Positions 4,894 to 28,415 of a DNA stretch of 33,188 nucleotides are shown here, in pieces. Source of the stretch: Magnetococcales bacterium HCHbin5 (GTDB lineage Bacteria; Pseudomonadota; Magnetococcia; Magnetococcales; Magnetaquicoccaceae); assembly GCA_002753505.1 (NCBI GenBank), contig PEAG01000040.1:1-33188 (forward strand), read 5' to 3'. How positions within the stretch are numbered: position 1 is the first letter of the stretch; the number at the start of each line of letters is the position of its first letter. Both the position numbers and the translations under genes were made by a program. The notes under the pieces were generated by a model. The model saw nothing but the letters and a program-made list of their open reading frames with translations, ran no database searches and was not told the DNA's origin.

Positions 4894-5430
4894 TTTCAAA
4901 CTATTGCAGGGGTCCGGGGACCGTCACGGTCCCCGGTGGGGTGCAGGGGCAAAGCCCCTGCATGTAACGGGCGCGCTTTCACAGAAGCCCATTTGCGCAG
5001 CAAATGGGCGCAGCGCGCCCAAAACGCCCCGCAGGGGCACTCCTGGAGGGCGGCAGCCCGACCGAGAGCGGGCAAAGGGTTATTTGGTTTGGAAAAAAAC
5101 CGGTCCTGGCCTTGTGTCAAACGAGAAGCCTAATACAATAAAGCCTAATACAATAAAGCCTAATACAATAAAGCCTAATACAATAAAGCCTAATACAATA
5201 AAGCGTAATATCCGAACGTTCTGCTTTTTTATCCAAACATTTTTCATAACATAACCGTGCGAGTCGGGCTGCCGCCCTCCCAAGGTCGCCCCTGCGGGGC
5301 GGTTTTGGGCGCGTTGCGCAAATTTTCTGCGAAAATTTGCTTTGGGAAAACGCGCCGTTCATGCAGGGGCTTTGCCCCTGCACCCCACTGGGGACCGTGA
5401 CGGTCCCCAGACCCCTGCAATCGTTTAAAA
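4894..5430 (+). mobile_element. Composite inverted-repeat element, copy 1 (non-autonomous)
   Basis: Two long imperfect inverted arms of roughly 175 bp (about 4900-5070 and 5260-5428) flank a unique centre. Each arm starts at its outer edge with the TTGCAGGGGTC hairpin unit, then a GC-rich module containing CGCCCC/GGGGCG and a GCAAAT- or GCAAATTTTC-type hairpin, and ends in GGGCGGCAGCCCGAC. The element aligns end to end with the reverse complement of 27298-27720, including part of the centre (ATATCCGAAC, ATCCAAACATTTT, CATAACCGTGCGAG). Copy 1 is longer because of an extra hairpin (GCCCATTTGC 4987-4996 with GCAAATGGGC 5000-5009) and a 15-bp tandem repeat. It encodes no protein. A MITE-like or REP/BIME-like element is the best description. 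It fills the gap between convergent bioF and the phosphatase gene. Confidence 0.75.
5128..5210. repeat. 15-bp tandem repeat, five copies
   Basis: Five exact copies of GCCTAATACAATAAA (5128-5202) followed by a diverged partial copy (GCGTAATA). It lies at the apex of the composite element. The other full copy of the element lacks the array, so it expanded in this copy only. The unit is AT-rich while the arms are GC-rich. Confidence 0.95.
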
Positions 5431-15102: not shown

Positions 15103-16707
15103 ATGAATCGATTGAGCAGCGCACAAGAGGGGGCTCTCGGGATGGCTGAACAGAGTGGGAGGGCAGACACAGCAGGCTTGCCCGGGGTGCAAGGGGGCTG
15201 CTCTGCATACGAAAATGGCCTGCTGGCCTTGTGGGATGCTGTCATGGCAACGGCGACCGACGAAAGGGCAGCGGGGCGGGGGTTGGATCTGGCGACCATG
15301 ATTGACCTTGTCCAGCGTCACCGTGGGGTGGCACAACCCTCTGATTGGGTGGCCGGAGTGCAACGTCTCGCCGCCCATATCGCTCCCATCCAGCACCAAC
15401 TGGAGCAGGCCCTTGCACAATGGGAGCTGATCAAGGGGATAAAGAGCCATGCCCTGGGTCAACTGGATCAGTCGCTTCCGTTGCTGCAAAAAATTCTGGC
15501 CAGAGAGGCCGGTGAGGCCGGGCTGACCTCGCCCGCCCGTGATGCCGATCAAAAAAGATGGAATTTTCTGAAAGAGAACAGACTCTTTTTCCGTACCGTG
15601 TTTTTGCAGATGGATGCCCTGCGTGCCCGACTCGACCATTTGGAGCCAAAAGAGTCTCTGTTGAACCGACACAGTGTGGATCTGGGGCGGGATTTGGAAA
15701 AACAGGCGGTCATGCTGCATGATTTTTTGCAGAACAGCCTGGATTTTCTGGAAAACCGGGGGGATGGCGCGGGTTTGACCGCTGCCCTGGCGGCGTTGTC
15801 TTCCGCTCCTGCTGTCGGACAGACGGCTGTGCCGGTTACCTCGGCTCCTGTCGTGGCCTCTCCTCTCACACGCTCTGCCCCGGCAACGGTGACCCGCACT
15901 GCAGAATCGGTGGATGCCTTGGTTGATCGGGTGCGGGAGCGTTGTCTGCAGGCCAAGCAGGTGCTGTTGCAGATGAGCCTGTGGGAGTGGGATCTGCTGA
16001 AAAAACCGATTCCACCACCGGAACTGCTGCGTGCCATTCGCACCCAGCAACCTGCGGTGGACCGGGCCTGTCTGGCGGTGGAAGAGATTCTGGAGAGTCT
16101 GGAACGGCTGACCCGCTGGCATGATGGCGAACTGGGCGTGGTGCTCGGCAGCCACCTTTCCACCCTGGAAAAGTTGCAAGGGGAGGCGGACGATGCCCTG
16201 GAGCAATTACATACATTGTTTGATCGCGTCTCTTTGCCGGCCCATGTGGACCGTCGCTCTCAGCTGGCTGTCACCCGATTTTTGCAGGAGAGGGCGGCAA
16301 AACGGCGGGCCGGGCTGCCGCTGCCATCGGAGCAGCGTACGGATGCCAGCAGCCGTCGGGTGGATGAACGCATTGCCGTGCGGTGCCGCATTGAGGTGCA
16401 ATCGCTGGAGGGAGGCGTGCCGATACTGGGGGTAACCCGGGATGTCAGCACCAAGGGGTTTTGCCTGGAGGCTGATGGCGTACCCGGTGGCGTTGCTTCC
16501 GGCATGTTGATCAGCTTCAAAATTTTGTCGGATGCCCAGCGCACCCTGTTTTTTGGCACTTTGTACCGCACCAGCGGTACCTTGCTGGTCATTTTGTTGG
16601 ACGCCGGCTGTGAGACGCAGTTCATGACGTTGATTCGGGCGGAAATTTTACAAAATCGGGAGGAGGGGGCGGGGATCCTCCCGTTAAAGCCGACGACGCC
16701 CTCCTGA
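15103..16707 (+). CDS. PilZ-domain protein, 534 aa
   Basis: A soluble protein with a C-terminal PilZ domain (about 414-520), expected to bind cyclic di-GMP. The two binding motifs are intact: RxxxR in RRVDER and DxSxxG in RDVSTKG. Upstream is a mostly helical region with two segments of unknown function: KENRLFFRTVFLQMDALRAR (about 156-175) and, after an Ala/Pro/Thr-rich linker, MSLWEWDLLKKPIPPPELL (about 290). Both segments recur, almost unchanged and in the same order ahead of a PilZ domain, at the C-terminus of the 1590-aa protein encoded downstream, so the two are paralogous there. It starts 4 nt after the FHA gene. Effector target unknown. Confidence 0.85.
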   Translation: MNRLSSAQEGALGMAEQSGRADTAGLPGVQGGCSAYENGLLALWDAVMATATDERAAGRGLDLATMIDLVQRHRGVAQPSDWVAGVQRLAAHIAPIQHQLEQALAQWELIKGIKSHALGQLDQSLPLLQKILAREAGEAGLTSPARDADQKRWNFLKENRLFFRTVFLQMDALRARLDHLEPKESLLNRHSVDLGRDLEKQAVMLHDFLQNSLDFLENRGDGAGLTAALAALSSAPAVGQTAVPVTSAPVVASPLTRSAPATVTRTAESVDALVDRVRERCLQAKQVLLQMSLWEWDLLKKPIPPPELLRAIRTQQPAVDRACLAVEEILESLERLTRWHDGELGVVLGSHLSTLEKLQGEADDALEQLHTLFDRVSLPAHVDRRSQLAVTRFLQERAAKRRAGLPLPSEQRTDASSRRVDERIAVRCRIEVQSLEGGVPILGVTRDVSTKGFCLEADGVPGGVASGMLISFKILSDAQRTLFFGTLYRTSGTLLVILLDAGCETQFMTLIRAEILQNREEGAGILPLKPTTPS

Positions 16708-16728: not shown

Positions 16729-16862
16729 ATATGCGCTAACATAGTTGCGGTCTTTCTTTAAAACGATTGCAGGGGTCCGGGGAGCGTCACGCTCCCCGGA
16801 CCCCCGCAATCGTTTTAAAGGACTAGAAAAAGCATGGGTATAGCCATCATGTTAGCGCATAT
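16729..16862. repeat. Large self-palindrome built from hairpin repeat ends
   Basis: An outer 14-bp inverted repeat, ATATGCGCTAACAT (16729-16742) and ATGTTAGCGCATAT (16849-16862), encloses a 63-bp palindrome (16757-16819). The palindrome is centred on C16788, and its 31-bp arms have one mismatch. The inner part equals two ends of the composite element joined face to face with no interior. It begins 21 nt after the stop of the 534-aa PilZ gene and may terminate or attenuate the transcript before the next gene. Confidence 0.9.
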
Positions 16863-16917: not shown

Positions 16918-19900
16918 GTGGCTGAACTGACAACCATTCGGCGGGACAACCCGTTGTTTATTCGCTACGGTTCGTTGGTGGAGCGTTGTTTTGCCAACAA
17001 TGCGCCGGTGGGTGCCCCGTTGTCTCTTTTTCCCACGGTAGGGCGGGGGAGCAAGGAGGAGGGGGGGAGAAAACATCTGGATTCCTATGCCGACCCGGAG
17101 GAGATGGCGGCCGCGCAAAGATCGGTGGACAAACTGCGGGCGGCTTTGCAGGCAGAACTGGCGGCGGTCGCCGATGGTGGCCACAATGGCCCGTCGGTTG
17201 TCCAGCAGTTGCAGGATTTTCGCTTCGGATTGCAGCGTGGCAAGGAGGTGATGCTGGAGGAGAATCCATTTTACGGGTTGGCGGGCCTCTTTTACCGAAT
17301 CAATCTGACCGCCTTGAAAAATGCCTTTGTTGCCACTCAGCGGGAGGCTTCGGACAATCCGCCCCGCCCCATCACGGTCTCCCGTTCCTACCGCCATATC
17401 TGGAGCAGCGACAGCTCCATCGCCAGCCTGGGCCAAAAACTGCGGGAAACTGTGGGTAAAATGGGTTCGTTGGGCAAGTTGATTGTGGGGCTGTTGCTCT
17501 TTGCCGGATCTACCCTGACCACCGCCAAGGGGGTGATTGATCTGGTGCAACTGCCGGGTTTTATTGCACTGTTCGGGGATCGTCTGGCAGGCAGTGCCAG
17601 CGAATCGGCCCGTATAACTTTTGCCATAATCGTCGGTTTTACGCTCTCCTCCATCATTCTGGACTATAAAAGCCGCCTGTTTCTGGGGGCAGCGGAGTCG
17701 GGTCGGGTTTTTCGGGGCTACTATGTGGCGTGGCGACGTCATCCCCGCTGGGTGATTATCGCTGCTTTCTTGACCATGATCTCCATCTGGACCAACTATG
17801 ATGGCATTGTCCTGTTGCTCTCCAAAACCGAAGATTTGGCCTACCAGTGGCAGAAGATCGAGCAACAGGTCGGCAGTGCCATGGGGGATGCAACGAGGCG
17901 GGATACCGAAAATCCCGCCTCGTTGCGGGATCTGCAGGCCACTTTGCATAAACAGGCGGCGGCTGCCATTCTCCAGTTCAAAAAGGTACCGGAAGATGAG
18001 ATGAGTGGCGCGGCCTCCAGTGGGGTGGCCAAAATGGGGCCTCGCTACTGGGCCAAGCGTTTTATTGTAGAGGGGGGCTACCTTCCTGGTCAAAACGATG
18101 TGGCCAAGGTTTTCAAAGGCAGCAGTCTGGTGGGCCAGATTGATGGCATGCTGCGGCGTTCCGGCCTCGATTTGCAACAGGGGCTGGAAGAGAAGATCGG
18201 CCGGATTTTGGCAACATATGACAGTGCATTCCAACAGAGTGAACGGGCCGTTCAACAAAAAATGGCGGTCCTTTCCGGCAGGATGACCTCCAGGGAGTAT
18301 TCACTGGAAGGGTTGATCACCTTGTTCAAGCTGGAGTCCTACCACATCAACGAAGGGGTGCAGGGGATTGTTGTCCATCTGGAGGAGAACAAGGAGGCCT
18401 TTGCCAAAGCGGCCCGGGAGATCAACCAACTGGCAGAGAGCCATATCGCTCTGCTGCGGGAGGTGGACAAGACAGGCGTTGCGACAAACAATGACTATAC
18501 CGTTGACATCAACATGGGCATTCCCAAACTGGAAGCCATCGACCAGTTGAAACAGGGGAGCATCCCCATGGCCAAACGGCATAATCTGGTCGAGTTGAAA
18601 GAGATTATGCTGGAGCGTTATGGGGTTTTCCTGGGGGGGATCTTTCTCTTTTTCGTCCTGTTTCTCGCCGTTTTCATGGATCTTTCCGATCCCATACTCT
18701 ATTCGGCCATGGTGGCTCGCTGGGGTCGGCGGGATCGCCATTTTCTGGATGAAAATGTCAAACGGTTCCAGGAGTGGGAAGAGAACCATGTTCACCACCT
18801 GCACCGCTTTTTGGTCCGTTCGGATGTGCTGGCCCTGTTGCCCAAGCTGCCTACGCCCAAAATTTATCTTTTCCATCACCGCTATAACCATTTTCTGGAG
18901 GCTGTGGAGCCCCGGGTCAAGGATCCGGCCAGTCGCAGCTGGTGGGAGCGGATCCGGTTCTGGTTTTCCGGGCTTTTCCAGGGCTCCCGGATTGACCATG
19001 TGGAGGGTTACAACGCCCGTCAGACCGCACTGACCCGATGTTTGCGGGATCCTGAAACCTTCGCGCCCCGTATTCTGAATACGGTTTTTCCCGGTCTGTT
19101 GGAGCCGGTGCAGATCGGAGTTGACCATTTTGATTCCGTGTTTGACAAGATTTATGCCCGGATGAAACAGAATGAGCGGGAGTTTGAACAGGCTTTGGCC
19201 CGTTATGCACCGGAGTCGGTGGCTCCGGATCCGGTGGCTCTGGAGCCGATGGCGGTTGATGGCGAGTCGTTGCAGCGGCTGGGTCTGTTCCGGGGATCTT
19301 TTCAGAATACGGCCTTGTACGATTTGTGGTCTCTGCTGCGTTCCTGGTTCCGTCTGTTGCTCTGGCAACCCGTGGATGCCCCGTCTCCCACCTTTCCACT
19401 GACCCGCATCAGCCAGATCCGGGCTTTGGCCTTATCCCACTACCAGTCCCGCAGCCACATCAGCCAACTGGCCGAGTTTGTGCCCAGCCTGCGCCATTTT
19501 GTGCGGCAGCGTCTGTTTGTCATCAAGCAGGATCTGTTGCAACCGATCGGCGAGACGCTGGCTAAAATTCCCAATGGCAACATGCTGATCTACTCTTTTC
19601 GGATCCACGAATTGCAGGAGGAGTATGCGCAACTGGAGCGGGGCTTGTTGGAACTGTTGGGGCTCTCCCAGTTTCAGGGCATTCAGATCAGTGAGCAGAT
19701 GGTGCATACCATCGTAGAGCAGTCGGGTGTGGATGAGATTGCTGGTATCTATCTGCGTGGTGATCTTCAGGAGGAGATACTGGAAAAGCGTATCGGCAAG
19801 CTGGAGTTCCGGCTGGCGCGGGCCTACAAGCTGATCAGGGATCTGGTGGAGGGGCAGGATACCCTGATATTTACCTTGACCCGTATTCGGCGGGAATATT

Positions 19901-21690
19901 TGAGCCCCATCCAGCATGCCCTGGCACCGTTGCACACCCGTGGCCGGATCGAAGAGGCGTTGGGGCTGCATAAAATGAAAGAGGATCTCGCGGTGATCGA
20001 GAGCTGCCTGCTGGAGCTCTGGGATCCCACCATACCTCCGATAGGGGTGGAACCGGCGGTGGCCGGAGCGGGTTTGGGGGCTATTATCGATCTGATTCGC
20101 CGCAACAGTGCGGTGGGGCAGGAGTTTGATCTGGTTCTGTACGTCAAACAGCTTGAAATCCGCATGGCGGCCATCCATAAGCAGTTGGATACGGCCATTT
20201 ATCAGCTCAGCATGGTGGACAAGATCACAACCAACGCCCTGGGTCTGCTGGACCATGCGGTAACCCTGGTCCAGCAAATTTTTGTCAAGGATGAGGAGAC
20301 GCAAAACTTTGCCCTGCTGCCATCCCATGAAGATCAGAAAAAGTTTGATTTTCTGGAGGAGAACCGGCTTTTTTTCCGAACCGTTTTTTTGCAGGTGGAT
20401 GCGCTGCGGGCCCGGTTCAACACGCTGGACATGAGGGAGTGCCTGCTCGGGGGACACGGCATGGATCTGGCGCGGGATCTGGAAAAACAGGCCATCATGT
20501 TGCGTTATTTTCTGAAAAATGCGTTGGATTTTCTGGAGGACAAGCGGGACAGTGTCGGTCTGTCGGCAGCATTGGCGGAGTTGCAGCCCCACACCCGTCC
20601 TTCCGTTTTGCGGCAGGCTCAGCGTCCGCTTGCGGTGGCGGAAACGTTCGCTTCTGTTGCGGAGAGTCTGTCGGATACGCCACCGCCGACCGTTGTTCCC
20701 TCTGCGGAGGCGGGGTCGGAACCGTCGGAGTCGGTTGTATTGGCGCAGGTTGCGGCGGAGTCTGGCGCGGATGGGGTGGCCGCCGGGGAGCAAGCTGTCA
20801 TCCCTCCGACTGCGCCGCCCACGGTTGCAACCAGGGCGGAGGTGGATGCACAGGTGGCCGTTGTGCAGAGCTGCTGCATGGAGGCCAAAGAGGTTTTGCT
20901 GGAGATGAGTCTCTGGGAGTGGGATTTATTGAAAAAACCCATTCCCCCGCCGGAGTTGTTGCATACCATTCAGACCCGGCAGCCTGAGGTGGACAGGGCT
21001 TGTCTGACGGTGGAGGGGATTCTGGTGACGTTGGAGGGGTTGACCCGTTGGCATGATGGGGCGTTGGGGGAGATCCCCGGCGGTCATGTTGCCACCTTGC
21101 AGGCGTTGCGGTCGGAGGCGGAGGAGGCCCTGGAAAAGTTGTACACGCTGTTTGATCAGATCTCCCTGCCCCCCTTTGTGGATCGCCGCTCCAAGGTGGC
21201 TGTGAACCGCTTTTTGAAGGAAAAGGCTGAACAGCGGCGCAAAGAGGCACGCTCTGCGTCGACGCAACGGTCGGAGCGTGGCAGTCGTCGGTTGACGGAG
21301 CGGGTTGCCGTGGGGAGCCGCATGGAGGTACAGGCGGTGGAGGGGGATCTGACCATGGTGGGTGTGACCCGTGACGTCAGTGCCAAGGGGTTTTGCATGG
21401 AGGCTGATGGTGTGCCCGGCGGGATTATCTCCGGCATGGAGGTCCGTTTTAACATTTTATCCGACGCGGAGCGTACGCCCTTTTTTGGCAGGCTGTTTCG
21501 TACCAGCGGCACCTTGCTGGTGGTGCTGTTGGAGGCCGGGCATGAGGTACAGTTTATGGCCTTGATTCGGGCTGAGATCTTGCGGGGTCGGCAGGGATCG
21601 GGCATGTTGCAGTTGAATCTGGATGCCCTGACCCGGGAGGAGGGGCTGGGGGCAGAGGTGTTCGACGACCTGCAACCATCGGGGGTTTAG
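16918..21690 (+). CDS. Large membrane protein with C-terminal PilZ domain, 1590 aa
   Basis: Not a protein I can name. Predicted membrane segments lie at about 188-206, 233-251, 278-297 and 568-588. A roughly 270-residue region between segments 3 and 4 would be extracytoplasmic if the N-terminus is inside, leaving about 1000 C-terminal residues in the cytoplasm. That part is largely helical and ends in the same module as the 534-aa neighbour: ENRLFFRTVFLQVDALRARF (about 1148), a Pro/Ala/Val-rich linker, MSLWEWDLLKKPIPPPELL, and a PilZ domain (about 1453-1560) with RLTER and RDVSAKG intact for cyclic di-GMP. The GTG start at 16918 has AAGGGA 7 nt upstream. The next gene starts 12 nt after the stop. 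It may be a cyclic di-GMP-responsive membrane scaffold or sensor; function is inferred from domains only. Confidence 0.85.
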   Translation: MAELTTIRRDNPLFIRYGSLVERCFANNAPVGAPLSLFPTVGRGSKEEGGRKHLDSYADPEEMAAAQRSVDKLRAALQAELAAVADGGHNGPSVVQQLQDFRFGLQRGKEVMLEENPFYGLAGLFYRINLTALKNAFVATQREASDNPPRPITVSRSYRHIWSSDSSIASLGQKLRETVGKMGSLGKLIVGLLLFAGSTLTTAKGVIDLVQLPGFIALFGDRLAGSASESARITFAIIVGFTLSSIILDYKSRLFLGAAESGRVFRGYYVAWRRHPRWVIIAAFLTMISIWTNYDGIVLLLSKTEDLAYQWQKIEQQVGSAMGDATRRDTENPASLRDLQATLHKQAAAAILQFKKVPEDEMSGAASSGVAKMGPRYWAKRFIVEGGYLPGQNDVAKVFKGSSLVGQIDGMLRRSGLDLQQGLEEKIGRILATYDSAFQQSERAVQQKMAVLSGRMTSREYSLEGLITLFKLESYHINEGVQGIVVHLEENKEAFAKAAREINQLAESHIALLREVDKTGVATNNDYTVDINMGIPKLEAIDQLKQGSIPMAKRHNLVELKEIMLERYGVFLGGIFLFFVLFLAVFMDLSDPILYSAMVARWGRRDRHFLDENVKRFQEWEENHVHHLHRFLVRSDVLALLPKLPTPKIYLFHHRYNHFLEAVEPRVKDPASRSWWERIRFWFSGLFQGSRIDHVEGYNARQTALTRCLRDPETFAPRILNTVFPGLLEPVQIGVDHFDSVFDKIYARMKQNEREFEQALARYAPESVAPDPVALEPMAVDGESLQRLGLFRGSFQNTALYDLWSLLRSWFRLLLWQPVDAPSPTFPLTRISQIRALALSHYQSRSHISQLAEFVPSLRHFVRQRLFVIKQDLLQPIGETLAKIPNGNMLIYSFRIHELQEEYAQLERGLLELLGLSQFQGIQISEQMVHTIVEQSGVDEIAGIYLRGDLQEEILEKRIGKLEFRLARAYKLIRDLVEGQDTLIFTLTRIRREYLSPIQHALAPLHTRGRIEEALGLHKMKEDLAVIESCLLELWDPTIPPIGVEPAVAGAGLGAIIDLIRRNSAVGQEFDLVLYVKQLEIRMAAIHKQLDTAIYQLSMVDKITTNALGLLDHAVTLVQQIFVKDEETQNFALLPSHEDQKKFDFLEENRLFFRTVFLQVDALRARFNTLDMRECLLGGHGMDLARDLEKQAIMLRYFLKNALDFLEDKRDSVGLSAALAELQPHTRPSVLRQAQRPLAVAETFASVAESLSDTPPPTVVPSAEAGSEPSESVVLAQVAAESGADGVAAGEQAVIPPTAPPTVATRAEVDAQVAVVQSCCMEAKEVLLEMSLWEWDLLKKPIPPPELLHTIQTRQPEVDRACLTVEGILVTLEGLTRWHDGALGEIPGGHVATLQALRSEAEEALEKLYTLFDQISLPPFVDRRSKVAVNRFLKEKAEQRRKEARSASTQRSERGSRRLTERVAVGSRMEVQAVEGDLTMVGVTRDVSAKGFCMEADGVPGGIISGMEVRFNILSDAERTPFFGRLFRTSGTLLVVLLEAGHEVQFMALIRAEILRGRQGSGMLQLNLDALTREEGLGAEVFDDLQPSGV

Positions 21691-21702: not shown

Positions 21703-22137
21703 ATGGAAAATCTGGTTACCGCAGAGGAGTTGATCAACTTTTTGGCTACCGTGGAGGGGTTGAAGGAGATTCCAACCGAAGATTTGGATGCGTTTGTCGT
21801 GCCGCTCATCAGCATTGCCACCTATGAGACGGGTCAGTCCATCATTGCCCGTGGGAGCATGGGCAGCCACCTTTTTATCCTGTATGAGGGGCAAATACGC
21901 GCCAACGTGTCGTATCCCGATGGCAAGAGTCGGCATTTTATCATGGAAAAGGGCTCTATTGTGGGTGAAATGTCTTTGGTTTCCAATCTTCCGGCCCGGG
22001 CTGATGTGGTGGCTGACAAGCCTTCCACCTTGTTGTTGCTTGACATAGAGACCTGTCAATCCCTGATGGTCAATCTGTGGCGGGTGACCAGGGCCTTTGC
22101 GGGTCTTATTGGTAGGCGGATGGCCAATCAGGCCTGA
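21703..22137 (+). CDS. Small cyclic nucleotide-binding domain protein
   Basis: A 144-aa protein that is essentially one CRP/CAP-type cyclic nucleotide-binding domain (about 25-125). GSHLFILYEGQIRANVSY is the beta-roll, and GEMSLVSNLPARADVVA is the phosphate-binding cassette with the E and R normally used to hold the nucleotide. No DNA-binding helix-turn-helix, kinase or membrane segment follows, so it would act through protein contacts. ATG 21703 has a purine-rich GGGGGAGGGCAGG region upstream. It sits 12 nt after the 1590-aa PilZ gene and is probably co-transcribed with it, bringing a second type of nucleotide input to the same locus. Confidence 0.87.
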   Translation: MENLVTAEELINFLATVEGLKEIPTEDLDAFVVPLISIATYETGQSIIARGSMGSHLFILYEGQIRANVSYPDGKSRHFIMEKGSIVGEMSLVSNLPARADVVADKPSTLLLLDIETCQSLMVNLWRVTRAFAGLIGRRMANQA

Positions 22138-22385: not shown

Positions 22386-25300
22386 ATGCTGGACTGGACT
22401 CTACAGTTGTTGAATCATGCCTGGGCACCCTGGGTTGTTGCCGGCTTGCTGCTGGTGTGGGGGGCCGGACACTGGGTTGCCTTGCAAGGCAACTTTTTTC
22501 GCCCATTGCACCAACAGTTGCTGGAGATGCGGCGGCAGTTGGAGGAGACGCCGGAGGATCCGATCGCCTTTGCCGGCCGATTTCTGGATATAGGGGAACC
22601 TTTGACCCGACTGCATCTGCTGGCTCCCGCCTGGTCCCTCTTCAGCAAAAGCCTGGTGGTCTCTCCGGTTCGTGGTGTTCCGCTGTATGGCAGCCGGGAG
22701 CCGCGCCATTTTTTTAACGTGGATGGCCTGATGGGGCGGGAGGCGGCTCACTATTACTACCGCACAATTCCCAACATGCTGTTGGGGATTGGGGTGTTGG
22801 TGACCCTGATCGGTCTGGTGGCAGCGATCCATTTTACCATTCAGGGGATGGACAGCGGGGATCTGTATGCAACCCAGAGTGCCTTGATGGGGCTGTTGAA
22901 CGCGGCTTCGATCAAGTTTCTCACCTCCATTGTCGGTCTTGCGGTGGCGATGCTCTTTTCCTGGGAAGAGAAGCGGCAGCGGCATCGGCTGGAGCGGGAT
23001 GTGGAGCAGATTTGCCAGTTGTTGCAAGAGCGGATGGCATGGACCGCGGACGATCAGGTGGGGCGGGATCAGCTGCAGGCGACCCAAGCCCAATCCCGCC
23101 ATCTGCAGGAGATTGCCGACCGTCTGCATCAGGTGATTACCCAACCCAGTTTTCAGGCCAATGCGGGCAAATCCAGCGGGGAGCCCCTGTTGACCGAGGG
23201 GATTGCGGAACGGTTGGCCAGCCAGTTTGATGCCAGCATGGCGCAGCTGCGGCAGACGGTGTTGGCGTTGGGGGAGAGCATTAAAAAGCTGCCGTTATCG
23301 GAGCCACCGTCGTCGCCGGCTGCCGGGGTGGTTCAAAACGAGGTGTTGGAACGGTTGTCCGCCCAACTGGGGGCGCAGGTGGCGGCATTGACGGCCCATG
23401 CAGAGAGCCAGTCGGTGGCCCAGACCGCGTTGTTGGAGCGATTGGCCGCCCGGATGGAGCAGAGTGTGGCCGCTGTGGTGGCCAAGGCGGCGACGGTTGG
23501 GGTGGGGGTTGCCGACCTGGAGCCGTTGCTGAACCGTATGCAGCAGGATGGCGAGCGGTTGTTGCAGGCCAACGAAGCGGCCATGGGCAGAATCCTGGCG
23601 GCGGTGGGCCAGCAGGTGGCGGGTTTGCAGACGGAGAGCTCGCTGGCTCTGTTGCGACCGGATGAACGGAGTCAGCTGGTTGAGAGCGTGGTCTCCCGCA
23701 TGGAGCGGGCGATGGCACTTGTGGGGGACGCGGGCCTGTCGCCTTTCCACCGGATTGCCGGTCAGTTGGAGCGGGCGATCACCCGGCTGGATGATCGGGT
23801 AAACCCGGTGGGTGTGGCGGATATGGCTTCCCTTGTGCTGGCCTTGCGGGCGGAAGGGGAGCGGATGCATGCGGCCCATACCGAGATGATGGAGACGTTG
23901 CGTTCGACCTGGTCCGCTGGTCCGGGTGGCGGGGCGTCTCAACTCTCTGCGGCGGGCTTGCAGACCGAATGGTTGGCACAGATTGCCCAGCAGATGGAGG
24001 AGAGCATAACCGCTTTGGTGGCCAAGGTGGGTACTGGTATGGGGGTTCCGGATCTGGAACCGTTACTGAGCCGCATGCAACAGGATGGGGAGCGTCTGCT
24101 GCAGGCCAATGAGGCGGCCATGGGGCGGTTGGTGGCGGTGATTGGGCAGCAGATTGGGGCTTTACAGACCGATGCGACCCTGGCGGCATTGCGGCCGGAT
24201 GAGCGGAGTCAGCTGGTTGAGACCGCAGTGGCTCGCATGGAGCAGGCGATGGCCCATGTGGGGGATGCGACCTTGTCGCCGTTCCATCGGATTGCCGGGC
24301 AGTTGGAACATGCGGTAATCCTGCTGAATGATCGATTGGCTTCGGCGGCTGCCCCGGCGGCGGATGTGACGCCGCTGGTGGCGGCCTTGCGGGCGGAGGG
24401 GGAGCGGATGCAGGCGGCCCACGCCAGCGCGATGGCGGGGCTGTTGTCGGCCTTGTCCCACCGGAGTCAGGAGAGTGGCCACCCGGCCGCTGTCGATGAC
24501 TTGCCTGGTCTGATGGAACGGATGGGTTTTCAGATCGAGAATGCCATCGCCTCGTTGGGGGAAAAGATGGAGGCATCCTTTTCCCATGCAGGTTTGGAGC
24601 GGTTGGCGCATACAGTGCGTCAGGAGGGGGCCCAGCTGGTTCGTGCCAATGAGGTGGCGATGCAAAACCTGTTGGAGCTGGTGAGCCAGCGATTGGCCGA
24701 TGCGACGGCGACGGCCACTCTGTCCGAGTTGCAGCCTGCGGAGCGGGAAGGGTTGTTGGAGCGGGTGGCTGCGCGGATGGAGCGGGCAGTGGCCAGCCTG
24801 GGAGAGGTGGGGTTGGCTCCCTTCTTTGACAGTATACGGCGGGAGATGGAGCAGATTCCCGGGGTTGGTTCGTCGGCTCTCAACGAGACGTTGCAGGGCA
24901 GTTTTGCCCGTATCACCCAACAATTGGACAGTGTGACCGCCGCTTTGGAGAGCAAGGTGTGGGCGGCGGAGACGGTGCCGGATATGGGCCAGTTGGTGAA
25001 GGCCATTCGCGGTGAGGGGGAGCGGTTGTTGCAGGCCAATGCGCAGGCGGTTGATCGGCTTTTTGCCGAGCTGAGTCAGAGGAGTGGGATGGGGGGATCG
25101 GCTGGCGAGGAGAGGCAGGCGGCTGTTCTCAATCGGATCGCCGACCAGATGGCTGCCCTGCATCAGGTGTTGACGGAGAGGTCGGCGTGGACGGAAACAT
25201 CGGTGGTCTCCTCTGCTTTGTTGCCCGACATGGAGAGCCTGGTTGCCCGTATTCAGCGGGAGGGTGAGCGGTTGGTGCAGGCCAATGAGCGTGCCATGGC

Positions 25301-27242
25301 GGGGTTGTTGAGTGAGGTGGCGCGGCGTTTTGCGGCTGTTTCCGCCACGACGGCGTTGGCGGAGTTGCATCCGGTGGAGCGGTCGGAGTTGCTGGACGGG
25401 GTGGCTGTGCGGATGGAGCGGGCTGTTGCCAGTCTGGGTGAGCTGGGCTTGACGCCGTTTTTTGATGGGATGCGCCATGAAATTGGCCAGTTGATCAAGG
25501 CCAACCAGCAGGCGGTGACCGAGTTGGTGCATGAGATCAACCAGCGCAGCCGGGAGCAGGGCAGTCAGGAGGCTCAGTTGTTGGAGAGTGTGGTTGCCCA
25601 GGTGGGTCAGACCATCACCCGGATGGGGGAAAAGTTTGCAGCGGCGGTGCCTCAGACGGCCACCCTCATGTCGGAGGAGATTGGCCAACTCATTCGCAGG
25701 GAGGGGGAGCGGTTGCAGGGGACGCATCAGCAGTTGCTGGGGCAGTTGGAGCGGTTGTTGAGCCAGTTGGCTGCTGGTCACTCTGCGGCGGTCTCTGCTG
25801 CGCCGGTTGCGGTGGGGGAGGTGGTTGCCGTGTTGGACGAGCAGAGCATGCAGCCGTTGCTGGATGGTTGGCGTCGGGAGGGGGAGCGGTTGGTGTTGGC
25901 CAGTGAAGCGGCCTTTGAGCGGTTGCTGGAGGAGTTGGGGCAGCAGTTCGCCCAACTGCGCAGTGGCGAGGGGGTCGCCTTGTTGGAGCAGGTTTCCAGC
26001 CAGTTGCACCGTTCCGTGCAGGCAGTGCGGGAGCCGGCGGCGGAGTTGGAGGCGGAGGGGGTTGATGCGGAGGGGATGATAGCGGAGGGTACGGCGGTTA
26101 CGGTGGGGAGCCATGAGTCGTTGCGACCTGTTTTGTTGGAGATGAATCGCATTATTTCCCAGCAGCGGCGCGAGGAGCGGCGATTGTTGAAGCAGGTGGT
26201 CAATGAGGTCAACCGTTCGGTGGCGGCGTTGGATGCCAAGATTGGTCGTGCCACCCCGTTGAACATGAAGACGCTGGTAAGCACGGTACAGGATCAGGGG
26301 GAGCGGTTGTTTGCCACGGTCAACACCTTGGCACCTGCGCTGGCTGAGATGACCCAGTTGATTGCCCGGCAGCGGGGGGAGGAGATGCAGCTGTTGGAGC
26401 GGGTGGCCACGGAGGTGAACCGTTCGGTGGCGGCGTTGGATGCCAGGATTGGCCGTGCCACGCCGTTGCAGCTGAAGAGTTTGCTGGATACGGTGCAGGG
26501 TCAGGGGGAAAGGTTGTGGGCGGGGAGTCAGGAGATTGTGCGGGAGTTGCGTTCCACGCGGGCGGTATTGCAGCCGGGCGGTCGTCGGGTAGAGTCGGGT
26601 GGTGCTGCTTCGGCTGCTGCTGATACCCGGGGTGCTGAAGCAGAGGAGGTTGTTGCGCCGGTTGCTGTGGTATCGACCGATCTGCCTGCGGGCATGGAGG
26701 GGGTGCATCGTTTGTTGGAGGCGTTATCGCAGCCTGCTGCTGTTGGGGTATCGGCGTCGGTTACCGTTGCGGAGCGGGGTTCTGCGGCTTTGGATCAGGG
26801 GGTTGCGCCGGTTGAGTCGGGTTTGTTGTTGGCTTATGAGTCTGCTTTCCGTTCGGATGGGGTGGTTCGTACGGACTCCTCTTCCTGGGTAGCGGCCAAG
26901 GTTGAGGGCAGTCTGCCTTCTGTTCCGAAGGTCAAGCCGGCGGTGGCGTCGTTTGTGCGTCTGTTGCCGGAGATGGTGGGGCGGACGCGGGCTCCGTTGC
27001 GGCTGCCGTCTCGTGAGGAGGCCAAGCCTTTGGTGGTTGTTGCGGCCGAGCAGGGGGGGCGTTCGGGGTCAGAGGTGGGTGGTCCGGTGGGGGATCTGGC
27101 GGTGCGTCCGTTGGTGCCCACCTTGTTGCAGGAGTTTGGCAGCAAGAAAAACCGTTCCTGGCAGCCCTTCACTGTTTTTGTCGAGCGGCAGACCTCGGAC
27201 TCCTATGACAGTCAGAAGCGGTTTTCGTTGTTCAAGGGCTAG
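22386..27242 (+). CDS. ZorA/MotA/ExbB-like membrane protein with giant repetitive tail
   Basis: A ~1618-aa protein. The N-terminal head has three predicted membrane segments: about 15-33 (WVVAGLLLVWGAGHWVAL), 129-149 (NMLLGIGVLVTLIGLVAAIH) and 175-192 (KFLTSIVGLAVAMLFSW). The middle stretch FFNVDGLMG...IPNMLLGIG and the LLNAASIKFLTSIVGL run resemble ZorA, the MotA/ExbB-type ion-channel subunit of Zorya anti-phage systems. Polar Thr/Ser lie in segments 2 and 3, where that family carries them. Residues 193 onward form a Gln/Glu/Ala/Leu-rich, presumably helical and cytoplasmic tail made of repeats around LLxRMQQDGERLLQANEAAM. ATG 22386 has GGAGAG close upstream; an in-frame TTG at 22266 would add 40 residues. 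No ZorB/MotB/TolR-type gene with an OmpA domain is nearby. It ends the FHA-PilZ-PilZ-cNMP gene block. Confidence 0.78.
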   Translation: MLDWTLQLLNHAWAPWVVAGLLLVWGAGHWVALQGNFFRPLHQQLLEMRRQLEETPEDPIAFAGRFLDIGEPLTRLHLLAPAWSLFSKSLVVSPVRGVPLYGSREPRHFFNVDGLMGREAAHYYYRTIPNMLLGIGVLVTLIGLVAAIHFTIQGMDSGDLYATQSALMGLLNAASIKFLTSIVGLAVAMLFSWEEKRQRHRLERDVEQICQLLQERMAWTADDQVGRDQLQATQAQSRHLQEIADRLHQVITQPSFQANAGKSSGEPLLTEGIAERLASQFDASMAQLRQTVLALGESIKKLPLSEPPSSPAAGVVQNEVLERLSAQLGAQVAALTAHAESQSVAQTALLERLAARMEQSVAAVVAKAATVGVGVADLEPLLNRMQQDGERLLQANEAAMGRILAAVGQQVAGLQTESSLALLRPDERSQLVESVVSRMERAMALVGDAGLSPFHRIAGQLERAITRLDDRVNPVGVADMASLVLALRAEGERMHAAHTEMMETLRSTWSAGPGGGASQLSAAGLQTEWLAQIAQQMEESITALVAKVGTGMGVPDLEPLLSRMQQDGERLLQANEAAMGRLVAVIGQQIGALQTDATLAALRPDERSQLVETAVARMEQAMAHVGDATLSPFHRIAGQLEHAVILLNDRLASAAAPAADVTPLVAALRAEGERMQAAHASAMAGLLSALSHRSQESGHPAAVDDLPGLMERMGFQIENAIASLGEKMEASFSHAGLERLAHTVRQEGAQLVRANEVAMQNLLELVSQRLADATATATLSELQPAEREGLLERVAARMERAVASLGEVGLAPFFDSIRREMEQIPGVGSSALNETLQGSFARITQQLDSVTAALESKVWAAETVPDMGQLVKAIRGEGERLLQANAQAVDRLFAELSQRSGMGGSAGEERQAAVLNRIADQMAALHQVLTERSAWTETSVVSSALLPDMESLVARIQREGERLVQANERAMAGLLSEVARRFAAVSATTALAELHPVERSELLDGVAVRMERAVASLGELGLTPFFDGMRHEIGQLIKANQQAVTELVHEINQRSREQGSQEAQLLESVVAQVGQTITRMGEKFAAAVPQTATLMSEEIGQLIRREGERLQGTHQQLLGQLERLLSQLAAGHSAAVSAAPVAVGEVVAVLDEQSMQPLLDGWRREGERLVLASEAAFERLLEELGQQFAQLRSGEGVALLEQVSSQLHRSVQAVREPAAELEAEGVDAEGMIAEGTAVTVGSHESLRPVLLEMNRIISQQRREERRLLKQVVNEVNRSVAALDAKIGRATPLNMKTLVSTVQDQGERLFATVNTLAPALAEMTQLIARQRGEEMQLLERVATEVNRSVAALDARIGRATPLQLKSLLDTVQGQGERLWAGSQEIVRELRSTRAVLQPGGRRVESGGAASAAADTRGAEAEEVVAPVAVVSTDLPAGMEGVHRLLEALSQPAAVGVSASVTVAERGSAALDQGVAPVESGLLLAYESAFRSDGVVRTDSSSWVAAKVEGSLPSVPKVKPAVASFVRLLPEMVGRTRAPLRLPSREEAKPLVVVAAEQGGRSGSEVGGPVGDLAVRPLVPTLLQEFGSKKNRSWQPFTVFVERQTSDSYDSQKRFSLFKG
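23461..24540 (+). repeat. ~540-bp in-gene tandem duplication in the tail region
   Basis: Two consecutive segments of the ZorA-like gene, starting at 23461 and 24001, share clear nucleotide similarity (for example GGTGGCCAAGG and CTGCAGGCCAA-type blocks). They encode near-identical protein: DLEPLLNRMQQDGERLLQAN versus DLEPLLSRMQQDGERLLQAN, then RPDERSQLVE and LSPFHRIAGQLE in both. More diverged copies of the same unit follow to about 25900. A separate pair near 26210 and 26410 encodes EVNRSVAALDA-IGRATPL twice. Confidence 0.85.
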
Positions 27243-27297: not shown

Positions 27298-27720
27298 TAA
27301 ACGATTGCAGGGGTCCGGGGACCGTCACGGTCCCCGGTGGGGTGCAGGGGCAAAGCCCCTGCTGAATGGCGCGTTTTCCCAAAGCAAATTTTCGCAGAAA
27401 ATTTGCGCAACGCGCCCAAAACCGCCCCGCAGGGGCGACCTTGGGAGGGCGGTAGCCCGACTCGCACGGTTATGTGATCGAAAATGTTTGGATAAGAAAG
27501 CAGAAGGTTCGGATATTCAGGTTTTTTTCTGATACAAGGCCAGGAATGTTTTTTTCCAAGCCAAGCCCAATTTGGCCAGCGTTCAGTCGGGCTGCCGCCC
27601 TCCAGCAGTGCCCCTGCGGGGCGTTTTGGGCGCAGCGCGCCCGTTACATGCAGGGGCTTTGCCCCTGCACCCCACCGGGGAGCGTGACGCTCCCCGGACC
27701 CCTGCAATCGTTTTAAAAGA
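27298..27720 (-). mobile_element. Composite inverted-repeat element, copy 2
   Basis: Second full copy of the element at 4894-5430, in opposite orientation. Its reverse complement matches copy 1 from end to end: outer hairpin unit, GC-rich arm, the central AAAAAAA-CCTGGCCTTGT-type segment, ATATCCGAAC, ATCCAAACATTTT, CATAACCGTGCGAG and the opposite arm. It lacks the extra left-arm hairpin and the 15-bp tandem array, which explains its shorter length (423 versus 537 bp). No transposase or other gene lies inside, so any movement would need an enzyme from elsewhere. Confidence 0.75.
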
Positions 27721-27812: not shown

Positions 27813-28415
27813 ATGGAATCACTGAACCATTCACTGTTTTTACTGATCAACGCCGGGGCCGAACCCTCGCCTGTCCTGTTGTACGGGGCCATTTTTTTTG
27901 CCAAGTGGCTGGTCTATTCGTTGCCTGTCCTGTTGCTGGCCATGTGGCTGTGGGGTCGCTCTTACCATCGGGAATTGGCGACCAAGGCGGTTTTGTCCAT
28001 CGTACTGGGCCTGTTGGTCACAGCCCTGATTCGGTGGCTTTGGCCGCACCCGCGCCCTTTCGTCGTTGGCCTGGGTTATACCCACCTGGCGCATGCACCC
28101 GATGCCTCTTTTCCAAGCAACCACGCCGTCTTTTGTTTTTCGATGGCCTTCTCCCTGTGGTGGAACGCGGTACGCAAACGGGCTGCCTGGATACTGCTGG
28201 GCGTGGCCCTGTCGGTGTGCTGGGCGCGGGTCTACCTGGGGGTCCACTTCCCGTTGGATATGGTGGGCGGGGCGGTCGTGGCACTGCTGTCGGTCTGGCT
28301 GGTCAACCGCCTGCTGCGCATCAACCGCCTGGGGGACCGATTGGTCATCAAGCTGGAAACGACCTACGGCCGTATCATGGCACGGGCCATCGCCAAGGGC
28401 TGGATCTCGGAATAA
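27813..28415 (+). CDS. PAP2-family membrane phosphatase
   Basis: A 200-aa integral membrane phosphatase of the type 2 phosphatidic acid phosphatase family. The three signature motifs are intact: R-x6-RP in RWLWPHPRP, PSNH in SFPSNHAVF, and R-x5-H-x3-D in ARVYLGVHFPLD. About five hydrophobic segments surround them, including WLVYSLPVLLLAMWLW and VVALLSVWLV. Length and order resemble BcrC/YbjG-type undecaprenyl-diphosphatases that recycle the lipid carrier for peptidoglycan and glycans. Phosphatidylglycerophosphate or lipid A phosphatases of the same fold cannot be excluded. ATG 27813 has only a weak ribosome site. It converges on guaA, with 44 nt between the two stops. Confidence 0.85.
   Translation: MESLNHSLFLLINAGAEPSPVLLYGAIFFAKWLVYSLPVLLLAMWLWGRSYHRELATKAVLSIVLGLLVTALIRWLWPHPRPFVVGLGYTHLAHAPDASFPSNHAVFCFSMAFSLWWNAVRKRAAWILLGVALSVCWARVYLGVHFPLDMVGGAVVALLSVWLVNRLLRINRLGDRLVIKLETTYGRIMARAIAKGWISE

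Follow-up and report, generated by a model that had tools for sequence, protein, structure and literature searches.

A Magnetococcales variant of the ZorAB motors and its probable link to magnetosome genes

The DNA analysed here (the window) is an entire contig of Magnetococcales bacterium HCHbin5, 33,188 nucleotides in length. An intact open reading frame of 1618 aa runs on its + strand, as do all window genes described below, from an ATG at 22386 to a stop codon ending at 27242. The start is supported by three close relatives from the same genus, which begin at the same MLDW residue. Upstream lie a 1590-aa membrane protein, termed BIG (16918-21690), and, between BIG and the long frame, a 144-aa protein with a cyclic-nucleotide-binding domain (21703-22137; Pfam PF00027, 1.6e-14), which is a recurrent neighbour of BIG. 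A PAP2-family phosphatase (27813-28415) follows downstream and serves as a synteny marker, being found beside ZorA in three genomes of the genus. The 534-aa product of 15103-16707 is 43-61% identical to residues 999-1575 of BIG and keeps PilZ-like motifs (PilZ, 0.0079); it is a paralogue that arose as a partial duplication of BIG's C-terminal half. A dispersed 21-bp palindromic repeat, given without strand, occurs upstream of BIG (16779-16799) and downstream of the long frame (27317-27337, with another copy at 27677), so that copies flank the three genes; others are present at 4916 of the window and near the unlinked ZorB gene described below (L163, 13756-17789). At 5126-5210 of the window a 15-bp unit (AAGCCTAATACAATA) is repeated in tandem 5.7 times.

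The product of the long frame is a real ZorA-type protein of the Zorya branch of the MotA/TolQ/ExbB superfamily. Its head (residues 1-219; 22386-23042) contains three long membrane helices and matches the PADLOC ZorA1 profile at 1.8e-25, far beyond chance. A head profile built from 23 relatives (A1) matched the solved ZorA 8qyh at 1.9e-17, and ZorA was the only protein matched below E = 1. The AF2 model of residues 1-900 shows long helices at about 14-53, 120-155 and 160-216, the pLDDT of the head being mostly 83-95; in Foldseek searches with this head ZorA ranked first (8qyd, 6.7e-8), with ExbB and TolQ structures well behind. The initial annotation had proposed a ZorA-like channel head from three membrane segments and the stretches IPNMLLGIG and KFLTSIVGL. 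These observations bear it out, as both stretches align with transmembrane segments of E. coli ZorA. Pfam MotA_ExbB (PF01618) does not match the protein. The full-length frame gave only weak, irrelevant Pfam matches (DUF6511, Apolipoprotein), and a phmmer search of the PDB with the full-length single sequence gave no match, the head profile being required. Alignment to 8qyh places T140 (22803-22805) at E. coli ZorA T147 of the polar ring and S181 (22926-22928) at S184. Both positions are kept, as in 13/13 canonical ZorA, and are regarded as ion-path residues because a Ser/Thr ring around the Asp of ZorB lines the ion path in ZorAB (PMC11890865).

The protein is not a flagellar stator MotA, given the missing PF01618 match and the separate MotA and MotB genes of the genome, in which a single motA also adjoins two tandem motB genes (G000:C1:7481-10032). 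Nor is the locus a Zorya system by membership, having neither an adjacent ZorB nor the ZorC and ZorD pair. As had been annotated, ZorC and ZorD are absent from the window (PADLOC scan and neighbourhood check); the ZorE nickase of type II had no match among the window proteins scanned. The EH_Signature model of ZorC found nothing in the whole genome, with positive controls detected. Matches to the ZorD model in this genome were rejected as helicase regions (about 280 bits vs 1115 for a true ZorD).

The tail of about 1400 residues is two to three times the usual length of a ZorA tail, the known tails having roughly 430-560 residues, and its unusual length was correctly noted at the outset. Over residues 220-1450 hydrophobicity has a period of 3.667, corresponding to 11-residue repeats (power 1.01 vs 0.23 after shuffling) and fitting the long helical tail that marks ZorA proteins, and the composition includes 3.1% Pro and 7.5% Gly. 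The cytoplasmic tail (23043-26570) is organized in modules of about 179-212 aa, evident at the DNA level as five copies of a 103-nt unit starting at 23518, 24055, 24595, 25231 and 25849 and spaced by 537-636 nt. A low-complexity stretch begins at about residue 1395. Three close relatives have 1056, 1146 and 1436 aa, and in the within-genus alignment whole stretches are gained or lost between conserved parts. The C-terminal tip (SWQPFT.F...QT...DSQKRFS.FK; 27123-27239) follows a variable linker and is conserved at 47-68% identity in the last alignment bin, after a stretch with 26-29%. The modules, the gain and loss of whole stretches and the periodicity together mark the tail as a rod that is built of modules and can be extended, not as a single helix. 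A single continuous helix of 0.2 micrometre, as first proposed, is unlikely considering the Pro and Gly content, the modules of about 180 aa, the low-complexity end and the broken, low-confidence helices that AF2 gives for the tail; tail lengths in micrometres are upper limits.

BIG has four predicted transmembrane helices, a helical periplasmic domain and a C-terminal PilZ-like domain (alignment A2, AF2; pLDDT 83.5 for residues 1-760). The periplasmic domain is predicted at about residues 300-565 (17815-18612) from hydropathy and the positive-inside rule. The PilZ-like domain (21289-21597) was located by motif search, with RxxxR at R1458-R1462 and DxSxxG from D1486. Several relatives exceed the Pfam PilZ cut-off. 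The motif pattern used is kept in only 18/61 members, so that c-di-GMP binding is not general in the BIG family. No relative was found when genome contigs were searched with the single BIG sequence; with alignment A3, all 44 relatives in named genomes belonged to Magnetococcales. Viral sequences scanned with A3 contained no BIG relative, and hence there is no sign of phage carriage. Foldseek gave no confident match for the BIG fold; the VIA-align rows are helical bundles with no OmpA-like fold among them, and were rejected as evidence of kinship for being generic. BIG often adjoins the cyclic-nucleotide-binding protein, with or without ZorA; it recurs beside long ZorAs and often stands in a fetched stretch lacking any ZorA. 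In the sister genomes G002 and G005 neither BIG nor the cyclic-nucleotide-binding protein is beside the long ZorA. BIG was speculatively put forward as a substitute for ZorB. This idea is not supported, in view of its all-helical periplasmic bundle, its four transmembrane helices, its absence from these two sister loci and its co-occurrence with ZorB. Five relatives (L049, L055, L060, L061, L078) encode both proteins, so BIG is not itself a ZorB; it is a membrane protein specific to Magnetococcales that carries a PilZ (c-di-GMP) motif.

The annotated lack of ZorB holds for the window, in which no homologue was found, and fails for the genome. A profile of ZorB-like partners (A4) gave one strong match in it (1.8e-51; contig C153, 28268-31174), a protein whose N-terminal transmembrane helix contains Asp (KFLLILMDLGLTLLFLVMIV) and whose C-terminal part is an OmpA domain. 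The gene lies in the magnetosome (mam) cluster of this genome; C153 also carries mamE, mamI, mamH, mmsF, parA, ycjX and ycjF, arranged as in sister genomes such as G005. One gene of that arrangement is missing, namely the short ZorA that G005 has between parA and ZorB, and about 240 bp lie in its place; draft metagenome-assembled genomes could hide missing genes. Apart from a paralogue on contig C135, the window gene is the sole match of the head profile in the genome, so the window ZorA is the closest available relative of the missing short ZorA. From phylogeny and gene loss we infer that the C153 ZorB is the best partner candidate of the window ZorA. The C135 paralogue (L083:9784-12942) is a second ZorA-like protein of 1052 aa with four transmembrane helices. 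Its apparent ZorB is unlinked (G000:C1:187275-188075), and relatives have the pair together (L141). Gene order in relatives assigns this OmpA protein to the C135 protein, and it was rejected as a partner of the window ZorA. Another OmpA protein, on C52, was dismissed as a ZorB for having no acidic residue in its transmembrane helix. Searches of the genome with SPOR and MotB_plug models gave no further ZorB-like candidate.

Magnetococcales are magnetotactic cocci. The head profile detected ZorA-like heads in 47/48 Magnetococcales genomes and in 24/350 other genomes of the phylum, where the frames mostly encode 630-790 aa. Among 13 such outside loci inspected, eight contained ZorB-ZorC-ZorD and two more ZorB with ZorD. 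ZorA-headed open frames of the order range from about 290 to 4577 aa, and tail length spans about 70 to more than 4300 residues, on heads that stay similar. The largest, of 4077-4577 aa, lie beside BIG and cyclic-nucleotide-binding protein genes (L057:682-14415; also L054, L055, L058); these giants have lost the S184 equivalent, and a SPOR-type protein with Glu in its transmembrane helix is encoded nearby. In several giants and in all eight ZorAs linked to mamT, the residue at the S184 position is one of Ala, Val, Leu and Ile, and the partners examined of such ZorAs have Glu instead of Asp. Loss of the Ser/Thr together with the partner Glu means that some members may not conduct ions, so that a static or altered role is possible there.

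At 24 of the 44 ZorA loci counted, which leave out canonical Zorya and the separate C135-type clade, a mam gene is present in the fetched stretch, and at 23 it is within 5 kb. The stretches are unequal in length and the genomes related, so this fraction is descriptive; chance proximity would be about a few percent if the mam cluster takes roughly 100 kb (own estimate) of a 4-Mb genome. MamH, MamE, MamT, MamS, MamB, MamQ, MamP, MamI, MamK and MamZ were recognized beside ZorA-like genes with NCBIfam models, the matches of MamE and some of MamA being under the curated cut-off though that model ranks first. Four contexts can be distinguished. In M1, ZorA and ZorB are followed by a ZorC consisting of the N-terminal part plus Hpt, adjoin mmsF-mamHIE and lack ZorD. 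M2 is ParA-short ZorA-ZorB-YcjX-YcjF, located in several genomes beside mamHIE or mamK. M3 is mamQBST-ZorA-ZorB, in places followed by BIG, and here ZorA is 3-33 bp from mamT (eight loci). M4, including the window, is BIG-cyclic-nucleotide-binding protein-long ZorA; the window copy is not part of the mam cluster, no mam gene having been found on its contig. A ZorD-like protein was detected at none of the 44 loci, and none of the three canonical Zorya I systems with ZorD in Magnetococcales (L082:200-8012, L182, L183) is near mam genes. The M1-type ZorC-like protein is exemplified by L069:14580-15854, in which the EH_Signature N-part leads into an Hpt phosphotransfer domain that takes the place of the usual C-terminal portion. 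A 533-aa protein in L073 (2-1603) joins a MamI-like N-terminus to a YeiH-type sulfate exporter, and a family of about 200-230 aa ('LATEDVPMDNRFGN') is met near ZorB, ZorA or BIG in mam clusters (L163:14491-15174, L061:5358-5960, L060:1890-2534).

In a tree of 63 ZorA heads the four species of the window clade (100/99) have the short M2 ZorAs of the same genus as their sister group (98/93). M2, M3 and M4 heads group together apart from canonical ZorA (94/83, slightly below the tool's own threshold). M1 heads cluster with other ZorA branches, and mam linkage may therefore have arisen more than once. In all, gene arrangement argues strongly for a link of this Magnetococcales ZorAB variant to magnetosomes.

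In papers on the mam clusters of Magnetococcales, genes downstream of mamT appear as hypothetical or as 'putative phage-related' (PMC3934378, PMC6783814), one of the latter kind lying immediately after mamT (PMC6783814); this gene may belong to the ZorA family described here. Within the open-access literature, to which the search was confined with subscription papers outside it, the accessible text held no link of Zorya or TolQ/ExbB-type motors to magnetosome gene clusters and no ZorA or motor identity for genes downstream of mamT. The one magnetosome-TolQ paper matched concerns, as far as its accessible part goes, Mg2046 and redox status.

The preferred reading, given a probability of roughly 45%, is that the protein serves as the ZorA-type subunit in an ion-driven 5:2 motor resembling ZorAB and comes from a mam-tied Magnetococcales lineage devoid of phage-defence effectors. 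Five copies of the window ZorA would surround two C153 ZorB, the OmpA domains of which would grip peptidoglycan, and ion flow would turn or switch the head and thereby move a five-stranded cytoplasmic rod. The conserved rod tip would contact a cargo, which would most likely be either a component of the magnetosome/MamK/ParA apparatus or a signalling partner. BIG, through PilZ and c-di-GMP, and the cyclic-nucleotide-binding protein would gate the motor, and its output would be to position or tether magnetosomes or to sense the load on them. At its simplest, the window ZorA would work as the known ZorAB do, with the rod tip acting on a target other than a phage nuclease. Because the closest relatives and the candidate ZorB are mam-linked, the best guess at its task is to position or tether magnetosomes or to sense force; the function would be that of a motor or tether that is anchored in the envelope, bears a rod and serves magnetosomes or magnetotaxis. 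It is possible, though rather doubtful, that a Zorya-type rotary motor has become a magnetosome machine of magnetotactic cocci, with a peptidoglycan-anchored, ion-driven rod that holds, moves or force-senses the chain and reports via the ZorC-Hpt, PilZ and cyclic-nucleotide partners.

The head, being closest to ZorA, and the ZorC-like N-terminal part kept in one mam-adjacent clade would also suit a divergent, Zorya-like defence against phages, with BIG or an unlinked protein as effector in place of ZorC/D or ZorE. This is unlikely, as no ZorD-like protein was seen at the 44 loci and the genome itself has no ZorC, and as canonical Zorya with ZorD exists separately in the order; near-universal presence and a fixed spot beside mam genes are also unlike patchy defence islands. 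Variation in tail length over similar heads, and the loss of the S184 equivalent in 8/8 mamT-linked ZorAs and several giants, would in turn fit a static device, a tether or ruler between envelope and cytoplasm, in which the length of the tail sets a distance and no ion-driven rotation is used. Such a device has a low probability for the window protein, its clade keeping both polar residues and the candidate ZorB its transmembrane Asp. That BIG itself acts as the axle in place of ZorB is very improbable: its adjacency here, its recurrence beside long ZorAs and its periplasmic domain speak for this role, but relatives encode it together with ZorB, it has four transmembrane helices and a helical periplasmic part, and it often occurs without ZorA in the fetched stretch.

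Phage defence is where ZorAB motors are known to act. The presence of the family inside the mam cluster of related species suggests that a phage-defence motor family has been re-used for magnetosomes. A family that is near-universal in one order, mostly without nuclease, and found repeatedly in or beside the mam cluster points to co-option of a defence motor for an organelle, or to the reverse. Unnamed genes beside mamT and mamHIE gain a concrete identity, and two questions become testable: how cocci position magnetosome chains, and whether any protein reads force on them. If a Zorya-type motor has indeed become a magnetosome machine, the rod device is a candidate for chain positioning or active magnetoreception.

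Taken together, these Magnetococcales proteins form a variant within the ZorAB motors. In the known ZorAB motors, which have 5:2 composition, ZorB binds peptidoglycan and the ZorA tails form a rod that is needed for function (PMC11890865). The window protein resembles Zorya type I ZorA (8qyd/8qyh, 8vvn; PMC11890865) in head fold, polar ring residues and long cytoplasmic tail, and an OmpA-type ZorB is present in its lineage. It differs in tail length (about 1400 aa, and up to about 4300 in relatives, vs roughly 430-560 aa), in the lack of ZorC and ZorD, in the unlinked ZorB and in the linkage to BIG and the cyclic-nucleotide-binding protein, with mam genes in relatives. The MotAB, ExbBD and TolQR 5:2 motors share the MotA/TolQ/ExbB core and the predicted transmembrane arrangement while lacking the long tail. 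In Magnetococcales mam clusters, to which the window copy is external, members of the ZorA lineage stand directly after mamT or beside mamHIE.
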